DNA of 64,000 nt, taken from NCBI RefSeq assembly GCF_031954525.1, contig NZ_CP134867.1:4931956-4995955 (forward strand). The letters are read 5' to 3'. This document shows positions 2 through 2,942 of this stretch, piece by piece. Every line of letters begins with the position of its first letter. Within the stretch, counting starts at the first letter, position 1. This stretch comes from Dyella sp. BiH032. GTDB lineage: Bacteria; Pseudomonadota; Gammaproteobacteria; Xanthomonadales; Rhodanobacteraceae. The translations under genes and the position numbers were made by a program. Under the pieces are notes generated by a model. That model was given only the letters and a program-made list of their open reading frames with translations. It did not search any database and was not told the DNA's origin.

Positions 2-2065
2 GCCCTCGGCACGGATCGGCCTTGCATCGCGTTCCAGGCTGCCGGGATAGACGCTACCGAGCCGCCCCTGGGTTCGGTCGAGGAAATGGCGCGGCGCTAT
101 ATCGGCGAGTTGAAGGCGATCCAGCCGACCGGCCCCTACCATCTCGCCGGCCACTCGTTCGGCGGGCTGGTAGCCTTCGACATGGCCAGGCAGCTCACCG
201 AGCAGGGCGACGAGGTCGCCGACTTGCTGCTGCTCGACACCACGACCGTCGGCGGCCCGGGGCCGTCCGATATGCCCGCCGATGTCATGGCGCTGTACGA
301 GCTGGCCTATGTCGCGCACCGCTTCACCGGGCGCGCCATGCCAGGCGGATCGGTGGACGCGCTGGCCGGGCTGGATGCACAAACGCAGCGCACCCTGCTC
401 GCGGACGAGCTGCGCGGAAACGCGGGGAATGCGCTCGCCGGCGATTCGCTCGACGCCCTGGTCCGCGTGCATATGGCGAGCTTCGACGCGATGGTGGCTT
501 ACGAGCCCCGGTATTACACGGGACCGGTCGTGCTGTTCCGCGCACTTGGCGGTTTTCCCAGGCACGCCGTCCATCCTGCGCGTCGCCTGGAGCATCGCTT
601 CGACGAGCGAACCATGGGCTGGGACCGGCATTGTCCGCGTTTGTCGATCGTGGAGGTTCCCGGCGATCACTACGCCATGGTGCTTGCGCCCCACGCGCAG
701 ACCCTCGCCGAGGCGATGAACGCCCGCCTGCGTCCGACGCGCTATGAACTGACGCTCACCCGGCTGGCTGGCCGGCCCCTGGCGAAGGGCGAGGGACGTG
801 CGTTCGCCGCCACGCACGACAGCATCGTGTTCCATCCCGAACACGACGATTTCATCGAAGACCCTTATCCCATCCTCCGGCAGCTGCGGGCTCGCGAGCC
901 GGTCTACCGCATGACGGACGCATCCACCGGCGCGTCCGTGTGGTGGCTGACGCGCCATGCCGACGTCTCGGCCGCGCTGCGCGACAAGCGGCTTCTGCTG
1001 GATGGCCGCCATCTCCTGGGCGAAAGCACGCCTTCCGAGAAGAGCGGGGTGGTGACGATCATTTTCCAGCTCATCCGGCAGCGCTCCGGTCCTGCCGCGG
1101 ACTTCATCAACCAGGCCATGCTTTTCATCGACGGCGAGGCGCACCGACGCCTGCGCCATCTGATGAATCCCTTGTTCGACGCGGCGTCGGTGCGGCGCTG
1201 GCAAGCTTCCATCGATGAGCGGACGAACTATCTCGCCCGGCGTCTGCGCGATGCCGACCAGCCGGACATCATGCGGGATTTCGCCCTGGGCCTGCCCAGG
1301 CACGTGATGTTCGGCATGCTGGGTATTTCCGTTCGCGACGCGGAAGCGCTGGACGCGCTGGCGGGCGATGCCTTCCGCATCATCGAGGCGACCGCATTCG
1401 CCGGCGACCCCACCCGGGCCGAAAAAGCCATCGCCACGGTCATGGACTACCTGCGCGCCCACGTCGCCGAACGCCGCCGCACGCCGGCACGCGACGATCT
1501 GCTGGGGCATCTGCTGGACGTGCGTGCGAATGGCGACCGCCTGTCGGACGAAGATCTCGCGGCGAACTGCTCGCTACTGCTGCTTGCGGGCACCGAAGTG
1601 CTGTCCTATGCGATCGGCAACGGCGTGCTCGCGCTGCTCAGGCATCCGGACCAGCACGAACGCTTGCGTCGCCAGCCCGAGCTGGTGGATTCGGCCATCG
1701 AGGAGCTGCTGCGGTACGACGGCCCCATGCGCACGAACATCCGCGTCGCGGCCGAAGATCTAACGATTGGCGACCGGCTCGTGCGCCGCGGCGAACCGGT
1801 CGTGCTCGACCTGGGTGCGGCCAATCGCGATCCGGCCATGTTTCCGCATCCCGACCGGCTCGATCTCGCGCGGCCGATCCGGCAGCTCACCGCATTCGGC
1901 CAGGGCGTGCATTACTGCCTGGGCGCGCCGCTGGCCAGGCTGCAGATGCGCAGCGCGCTACTGGCGCTGTGCCAGCTTCGCTTCGAACGAGTTCCCGGCC
2001 AGCTGGTCTGGGAAAAGAGCAGCGTCGTGCGCCGCCTGCAACGGTTCGGCGTCCGTTTCAGCTGA
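2..2065 (+). CDS. NRPS/PKS C-terminal thioesterase fused to cytochrome P450 (5' partial)
   Basis: The open frame enters from the left edge with no start in the window, so this is the tail of a larger protein. The first ~240 codons form an assembly-line type I thioesterase: the [14 protein letters not shown] lead-in, nucleophile GHSFGG (Ser codon 155-157), LLLLD acid and a GDHYAM histidine. Without a stop, the frame continues into a complete class I P450 from about 790: [11 protein letters not shown]-helix, AGTEVLS I-helix, EELLR ExxR and [10 protein letters not shown] haem loop (Cys codon 1916-1918). The TE would release a thioester-bound product and the P450 would oxidise the chain or product. 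The I-helix position that is usually Thr is Val (codon 1598-1600). The gene ends inside the 3' end of convergent ttcA. Family calls are strong; the order TE then P450 is directly seen, and the upstream modules are inferred. Confidence 0.88.
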
Positions 2066-2942
2066 GCGCGGCTTCGTCATCGGCGGGCGCACCGGCTAGC
2101 CATTGGTGCGCGTCCGCGCGGGCCGCGCCTTCGCGCGAGCCGAGCGAGGCGAAATCGAACAGGTGGCGGTCGGCCAGCTGGGAAGGCGCCACCGAACCGA
2201 GCGCGCGGAACATAGTTTCGCTGCGGCCCGGATACTGCTTTTCCCAATCCTCCAGCATGCGCTTGACCACCTTGCGCTGCAGGTTCTCCTGCGAGCCGCA
2301 CAGGTTGCACGGGATGATCGGGAACTGCCGCTGCCCGGCGTATTCGGCGATGTCGCTTTCCTTGCAGTACGCCAGCGGGCGAATCACCACGTGGCGTCCA
2401 TCGTCCGAGCGCAGCTTCGGCGGCATCGCCTTCAGGCTGGCCTGATAGAACAGGTTGAGGAAGAACGTGCCGAGGATGTCGTCGCGATGGTGGCCTAGCG
2501 CGATCTTGGTGATGCCGTTGGCCGCCGCCCAGGTGTACAGCGCGCCGCGCCGCAGGCGCGAGCACAGGCTGCACATGGTCTTCCCTTCCGGAATCACGCG
2601 CGTGACGGTGCTGTAGGTGTCCTGCTCGATGATGTGGAACGGCACGCCGCGCGCGGTGAGGTAGTCCGGCAGCACGTGTTCCGGGAAGCCAGGCTGCTTC
2701 TGGTCCAGGTTCACCGCGATCAGCTCGAAATGCACCGGCGCCTTGGCCTGCAGGGACAGCAGGACGTCCAGCAACGTGTACGAATCCTTGCCGCCGGAGA
2801 GGCAGACCATCACCTTGTCGCCCTCTTCGATCATGTTGAAGTCGGCGATGGCCTGGCCGACCTGGTGACGCAGGCGCTTGGCCAGCTTGGCGGCCTCGTA
2901 CTGCTGCTTGCGATGGGCGTCGGGCTGGACGGACATAGGCAT
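2058..2942 (-). CDS. ttcA: tRNA 2-thiocytidine(32) synthetase
   Basis: 294 aa, normal length for TtcA, which uses ATP and a 4Fe-4S cluster to put sulfur on cytidine 32 of tRNAs in the cytoplasm. Visible are the PP-loop SGGKDS near residue 50, the CSLC cysteine pair, GHHRDD, and the CNLC pair in [11 protein letters not shown], in the family order. The start lies 105 bp from the small YdcH-like gene on the other strand. Its last 8 bp overlap the stop of the convergent TE-P450 gene, so no terminator fits between them. Identification is secure. Confidence 0.97.

Follow-up and report, generated by a model that had tools for sequence, protein, structure and literature searches.

A single-gene FAAL-ACP-TE-P450 protein of Dyella as a probable self-contained fatty-acid tailoring enzyme

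INTRODUCTION

Tethering of the substrate to a carrier is one route to selectivity for natural-product cytochromes P450. P450BioI (CYP107H1), a separate protein of biotin synthesis, acts on acyl-ACP, and PikC and Vdh use free macrolides and vitamin D. A threonine in the I helix has a role in P450 oxygen activation, and P450eryF is a working P450 that lacks it. A different oxidising domain occurs in HmqF, which reportedly has the make-up fatty-acid-AMP ligase (FAAL)-acyl-CoA dehydrogenase-ACP-TE.

HmqF of Burkholderia is described, in the available part of the source, as a putative AMP-dependent ligase behind side-chain unsaturation, encoded in an operon (PMC6403149). Polyyne clusters (caryoynencin, protegencin) combine a FAAL, an ACP, three desaturases and a thioesterase, and pgnH of these systems is a desaturase-thioesterase didomain (PMC8406139, in part). 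FAAL-ACP didomain starters pass their chain to a PKS or NRPS according to a 2025 review, in whose main text, as partly available, the term “P450” has no occurrence (PMC11837247). A Pseudomonas protein termed “NRPS 10” is given as A-T-TE-P450, with an unpredicted A domain and no function in the accessible part of that paper (eLife 2021, PMC8719888). In our searches of the open-licence literature, we found no functional study of FAAL-ACP-TE-P450 proteins. Here, we describe a gene for such a protein from Dyella sp. BiH032.

RESULTS

The complete gene encodes four domains in one frame

We analysed a 64,000-nucleotide stretch of contig NZ_CP134867.1, referred to as the window (G000:C1:4931956-4995955 within a 5.25-Mb genome). 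A sequence-only reading of its first lines had proposed that a thioesterase and a P450 lie in a single uninterrupted frame, with the P450 covalently joined behind an assembly-line thioesterase. Pfam bears out the fusion: forward frame 2-2065 is open throughout in the ORF reading of the window, matches p450 (E 1.8e-28) and only the opening part of the Thioesterase profile (E 3.7e-22), and contains the motifs cited in that reading (27 residues, comprising GHSFGG, GDHYAM and the P450 haem-binding loop; Table 1). The gene starts at an ATG at G000:C1:4929782, 2,174 bases left of the window, and its full product, P0001, has 1,412 residues; a relative, P0003, starts at the same position. Neither a stop nor a frameshift separates thioesterase and P450, the frame stays open over 1,465 codons of the genome, and 33 other proteins are likewise built with the same motif order, making it very unlikely that the assembly is wrong or that a stop was overlooked there.

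Table 1 Features of the fused gene and of related loci (window positions unless a locus is given)
Feature	Position	Strand	Remark
Window part of the FAAL-ACP-TE-P450 gene	2..2065	+	residues 726-1412 and stop
Thioesterase domain, first ~20 residues (~706-725) upstream of the window	2..721	+	end approximate; PF00975
Thioesterase nucleophile (presumed), Ser777 (GHSFGG)	155..157	+	invariant in 34/34 aligned proteins
Thioesterase Asp804, probable triad acid	236..238	+	at least 90% conserved over 34 rows; role inferred
Thioesterase His948 (GDHYAM)	668..670	+	invariant in 34/34
TE/P450 junction, ~20 residues, without stop	722..784	+	boundaries approximate; alignment with the stand-alone P450 9w6b begins at residue 987
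Cytochrome P450 domain, residues 987-1412	785..2062	+	
Val1258 where the I-helix Thr is expected (AGTEV versus AGxET)	1598..1600	+	alignment of 34 rows
ExxR motif, Glu1293-Arg1296	1703..1714	+	invariant in 34/34
Haem-binding loop (15 residues), Cys1364	1895..1939	+	Cys invariant in 34/34
ttcA-like PP-loop gene, convergent	2058..2942	-	8-base overlap with the fused gene, 3' end to 3' end; borders the insertion on the right
Divergent neighbour, Halomonas	L040:8463-9281	-	RhlA homologue by PDB 8ik2 match
Divergent neighbour, Halomonas	L039:8259-9077	-	resembles that of L040 by eye

The fused gene is a four-domain FAAL-ACP-TE-P450 gene whose last half is shown by the window. In P0001, Pfam places AMP-binding at residues 12-413 (PF00501, E 4.3e-72), a DIP2-like AMP-ligase part at 457-569, PP-binding at 608-672, Thioesterase at 706-806 (PF00975, profile positions 2-103 of 226) and p450 at 1092-1382. 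There is one loading domain, of FAAL type, and one carrier; Pfam finds no C, KS, AT or acyl-CoA dehydrogenase domain anywhere in the protein. The upstream sequence, where a free-standing hydrolase had been named as the result that would overturn the sequence-only reading, contains instead a FAAL-type ligase and an ACP in the same frame.

The surroundings are those of a lone gene. Ten neighbouring proteins, about 10 kb to the left and 4.4 kb to the right, have unremarkable Pfam assignments (aminotransferase, PP-loop, TonB plug, DUF2252, GNAT, DUF218, M49 peptidase, RdgC, YgjP-like and MFS), and none of the ten has a condensation or ketosynthase domain or is a redox partner. The stretch beyond these on the left encodes an M1 peptidase, an RHS-repeat protein and a glycerol-3-phosphate acyltransferase, and it also has phage-tail genes. 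Five of the eight frames there have an ordinary Pfam match; of the three that do not, two are antisense to matched frames and the third is L003:8595-9884 (+). The phage tail-tip genes occupy L003:12464-16153, at a distance of about 45 kb from the fused gene. All condensation-domain matches of the genome fall within a small gene set at C1:1080832-1088866, and no ketosynthase match is nearer than C1:3.73 Mb. By eye, the fused gene also stands alone at its locus in four other cases (L037, L038, G182 and G171).

The loading domain is FAAL-like

Searched against NCBIfam, the N terminus of P0001 is matched first by PRK05691, a giant NRPS/PKS model, at positions 10-656 of 4,334, that is, at that model's own N terminus, and next by fatty-acid-AMP ligase models (PRK05850, E 2.9e-125). 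Both of the best-matching FAAL models stay under their curated cut-offs, PRK05850 with 419 bits (cut-off 775) and the other with 400 bits (cut-off 922). Because the ligase scores under every curated FAAL cut-off shown, we use the wording “FAAL-type” for a domain that is, by sequence, FAAL-like and outside the named FAAL subfamilies. The amino-acid adenylation model TIGR01733 reaches 172 bits, below its cut-off of 317.4. The nearest solved chains are 7r7f (labelled polyketide synthase), 3kxw (Saframycin Mx1 synthetase B), FadD23 and FadD32, and both the P-loop YTSGST..PKG and the catalytic lysine region KTSSGK of the AMP-binding fold are in place. FAALs have a specific insertion that is absent from acyl-CoA ligases and whose known site follows the motif GYGLAE. 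Extra residues stand behind GYGLAE (AYGLAE in two) in 7/7 family rows, those of P0001 and six relatives, relative to a single comparator, an acyl-CoA-ligase-like protein from the same genome. The carrier serine is invariant in 34/34 rows. The genome contains one match to ACPS-family phosphopantetheinyl transferases, one other P450 and five Fer2 matches; with the ACPS-family and Fer2 matches, carrier activation and electron supply are possible.

Thioesterase and P450 keep their catalytic residues, except for the I-helix threonine

The thioesterase region aligns over most of its length to PDB chains such as 4zxh and Pks13, and its homologues in P0007, P0014 and P0033 cover nearly the entire Thioesterase profile. 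Ser777, Asp804 and His948 are conserved and would, by analogy, form the triad of a type I thioesterase; Ser777 is presumably the nucleophile, a role known for the family.

The haem cysteine and the ExxR motif, which identify a cytochrome P450, are invariant in 34/34 rows. By sequence the closest P450 in the PDB is 9w6b, and PikC and Vdh appear by name among the P450s related to that of P0001. A fold search with the P450 domain alone places P450BioI first, in a tie with StaP and PksS to within 1 Z; the P450BioI structures listed include complexes with C14, C16:1 and C18:1 acyl-ACP. The I-helix acid-threonine pair is absent from P0001 (AGTEV). Threonine occupies this site in 29/34 rows, and valine in all three members of the clade to which P0001 belongs (P0001, P0003 and P0004). 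This clade spans divergence to 73% identity, retains Cys and ExxR, and has tree support of 100/100. Judged from the alignment, the missing threonine puts ordinary oxygen activation in doubt for these proteins and may leave room for an unusual reaction; it lowers confidence in ordinary monooxygenation and leaves the fold assignment untouched.

A family with added and missing domains

Our homologue search scored 8,000 candidates and found 1,313, the best 120 of which we examined. AMP-binding, thioesterase and P450 occur together in 34 of these best 120, one being the window's own cluster. Motif order is identical across the 34 aligned rows, and P0026 is without the ligase P-loop stretch. Among the source names are Pseudomonas, Lysobacter, Luteibacter, Halomonas, Serratia, Collimonas and Sorangium, and some members are labelled plainly “cytochrome P450” or “acyl-CoA-binding protein”. 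Six of the 34 have an added acyl-CoA-binding domain, and three Sorangium members have an extra hydrolase. The latter, P0033-P0035, are longer; the extra domain is an alpha/beta hydrolase, which in P0033 follows the P450. By source name, P0032, P0033 and P0035 come from one strain, So ce269, as three paralogues. Two further proteins among the best 120 of 1,313, P0078 and P0105, are FAAL-acyl-CoA dehydrogenase-ACP-TE with the dehydrogenase ahead of the ACP, by sequence a parallel design with the dehydrogenase as the other oxidising domain. A contig scan with two conserved thioesterase-region patterns gave 10 loci, six family members and four weak matches. Two copies look interrupted, and are decaying or mis-sequenced: in L042 (Pseudomonas khavaziana) the P450 part lies outside the first ORF, and G022:C1:1423890-1426304 has one in-frame TGA.

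ACP-TE-P450 proteins that lack the ligase account for 7 of the best 120 of 1,313; that of G154 is encoded at L052:8890-11421. Five genomes with such short forms were searched for FAALs at E<=1e-30. Four (G154, G022, G275 and G276) have none, so that not every member depends on a FAAL for loading; in the fifth, Microbulbifer G277, two FAALs are encoded elsewhere. In the tree, rooted at the midpoint only, short forms fall into two supported groups that also contain four-domain rows, a placement that suits FAAL loss better than short forms as ancestors.

The Halomonas short genes in L039 and L040 each adjoin a divergent gene. The L040 neighbour matches 3-(3-hydroxydecanoyloxy)decanoate synthase 8ik2 over residues 1-272 of 273 (E 8.8e-64), and neither neighbour protein exceeds the cut-off of any NCBIfam model. 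These loci hint at 3-hydroxyacyl chemistry there, possibly HAA-type lipid synthesis, in one lineage that carries no evidence on the product of the window's gene. The C-terminal hydrolase of P0033 is not close to the RhlA-like neighbour (21% identity, E 0.004). We rejected an RhlA-like neighbour as a general partner: it was seen at L039 and L040 and was not noted, by eye, in the ORF lists of L037, L038, L041, L042 or L050-L053.

In G014, G061 and G072, genomes of the same family or order, a P450 gene stands behind a FAAL-ACP gene and ahead of genes that by eye appear to encode PKS/NRPS. The loci L074, L075 and L076, from three relatives of this same rank, have a FAAL-ACP gene, then an unfused P450 gene and what look like PKS/NRPS genes; this arrangement is possibly a split counterpart of the fused gene.

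The gene is sporadic and its site is empty in relatives

At E<=1e-125, the fused gene is found in 5/233 genomes of the same family, the window's own included, and in 3/26 genera; none of the five other species of the genus matches at this limit. Such tallies hang on strict E-value limits (1e-125, 1e-140) set to exclude lone FAALs, as illustrated by congener G001, which has an unfused FAAL-region match at 4.5e-117. In a draw of 298 Pseudomonas genomes the one match is the centre genome itself, yet the Pseudomonas loci L038 and L042 exist.

The site occupied here is empty in 5/5 congeners, in which the flanking aminotransferase gene and the ttcA-like gene are direct neighbours (sites read; junctions approximate). 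The two genes adjoin directly in 5/7 other genomes of the same family that were tested; in the remaining two, and in seven genomes from other families, the short stretch retrieved did not show the aminotransferase. GC3 is 0.82 in the fused gene (0.79-0.84 by domain) versus 0.89-0.92 in the surrounding aminotransferase, ttcA-like, GNAT and TonB-receptor genes, which were named beforehand and so are spared the bias of the ORF lists. Relatives in G182, G171, G154 and G022 have GC3 of 0.57-0.63 and most of their neighbours are higher, with an ORF picker that biased neighbours upward. Together, these features suggest that a lone gene was probably gained by horizontal transfer. We rejected carriage as plasmid or phage cargo on record searches: 0 of 72,556 plasmid records cover at least 80% of the TE-P450 region at E<=1e-50 (tblastn; four partial matches, P450 region only), and no match was found in 50,697 phage records at E<=1e-30.

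DISCUSSION

We propose, with a probability of roughly 0.7, that P0001 is a self-contained and probably horizontally acquired fatty-acid tailoring enzyme that loads its substrate, oxidises it on the ACP in cis and releases it. The FAAL would use ATP to convert a free fatty acid to acyl-AMP and pass the acyl group on to the neighbouring ACP. The P450 at the C terminus would oxidise the tethered chain, most likely by hydroxylation, and the thioesterase would then free the product as the oxidised acid or as its lactone or ester. The gene order in G014, G061 and G072, the polyyne clusters and HmqF are taken as supporting logic for this scheme.

The sequence-only reading had placed the fusion as the last protein of an NRPS/PKS, with the cluster to the left. 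The thioesterase and carrier do resemble those of assembly lines, and the genome has condensation-domain matches at C1:1080832-1088866. However, the whole gene is without C, KS and AT, the neighbours are ordinary, and no condensation or ketosynthase match lies nearby, so that the upstream sequence and the genome positions of these matches rule out a cluster in cis; a trans partner is conceivable, and the assembly-line reading is very improbable. What survives of that proposal is the covalent attachment of the P450 behind the thioesterase; action on a carrier-bound chain is plausible. One target it had named, the released product, is a rather unlikely one: the P450 would oxidise a free product after release, or an unrelated small molecule, and the fusion would serve merely for co-expression. 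The P450 does follow the thioesterase in sequence, and its relatives PikC and Vdh take free substrates. A place behind the thioesterase does not oblige the P450 to act on released product, since the ACP could swing to either side; moreover, the acyl-ACP enzyme P450BioI is among the closest folds, the ACP is retained with TE-P450 even in FAAL-less forms, and loading, tethering and immediate hydrolysis with no tethered step would amount to a futile cycle.

The same domain order is given as A-T-TE-P450 in Pseudomonas (PMC8719888, as partly available; shared family inferred from order), and P0001 might thus be a single-module NRPS-like protein acting on an amino or aryl acid, like “NRPS 10”. This is improbable given the far higher scores of the N terminus on FAAL models than on the adenylation model, the FAAL-like extra segment and the acyl-CoA-binding domain fused in 6/34 members. 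Somewhat more weight, though still well short of an even chance, goes to a different role for the P450 in the window's clade, in which the valine would mark another reaction on the tethered chain (desaturation, chain cleavage or peroxide-driven oxidation) or a structural remnant. Its retention in 3/3 clade members alongside Cys and ExxR fits such a change; against it, P450eryF works without the threonine, and substrate-assisted hydroxylation would suffice. We retain on-carrier oxidation of a fatty acid as the preferred reading.

More tentatively, the family may represent a mobile, elongation-free, one-gene lipid-oxidising synthase, a miniature assembly line that serves solely to load a cellular fatty acid, oxidise it on its own carrier and release it. 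It would have shed and gained parts (acyl-CoA-binding domain and hydrolase added, FAAL lost, RhlA neighbour) and would make signals or surfactants, hydroxy-fatty-acid or HAA-like, of a class not assigned before, with a Thr-less P450 performing an unusual reaction on the tethered chain in the window's clade. If the preferred reading holds, one transferable gene packages fatty-acid oxidation on a built-in carrier. The fused, cluster-free protein would be a simple system for testing whether a P450 reads its carrier, and it might also serve as a biocatalyst in making hydroxy fatty acids. Proteins labelled “cytochrome P450”, “acyl-CoA-binding protein” or single-module NRPS may be lipid-tailoring enzymes. 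As far as our searches of the open-licence literature reach, the new points are the FAAL-type reading, the conservation across the family, the variants with added or lost domains, the insertion of a single gene and the clade without the threonine.

Among known systems, P450BioI is the nearest fold and has been solved with acyl-ACP, but it shares 32% identity and is without fused ligase, carrier and thioesterase. “NRPS 10” has, like P0001, the order loading-carrier-thioesterase-P450 in one protein; in the available part of its source it is described as an NRPS, whereas the loading domain of P0001 reads as a FAAL, and the two are likened by domain order alone (PMC8719888). The proposed logic of HmqF, as partly sourced, is similar in that a fatty acid, once activated, is modified in the tethered state and then used, but the oxidising domain is reportedly a dehydrogenase and not a P450, and hmqF lies in an operon whereas the fused gene is alone. 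In polyyne clusters, too, a FAAL, an ACP, oxidising enzymes and a thioesterase cooperate; these clusters are multi-gene with three desaturases (PMC8406139, in part), and no desaturase is among the fused gene's ten neighbours. FAAL-ACP starters, as far as the partly available source describes them, have the FAAL fused to its ACP as in P0001, which would instead serve its own thioesterase and P450.
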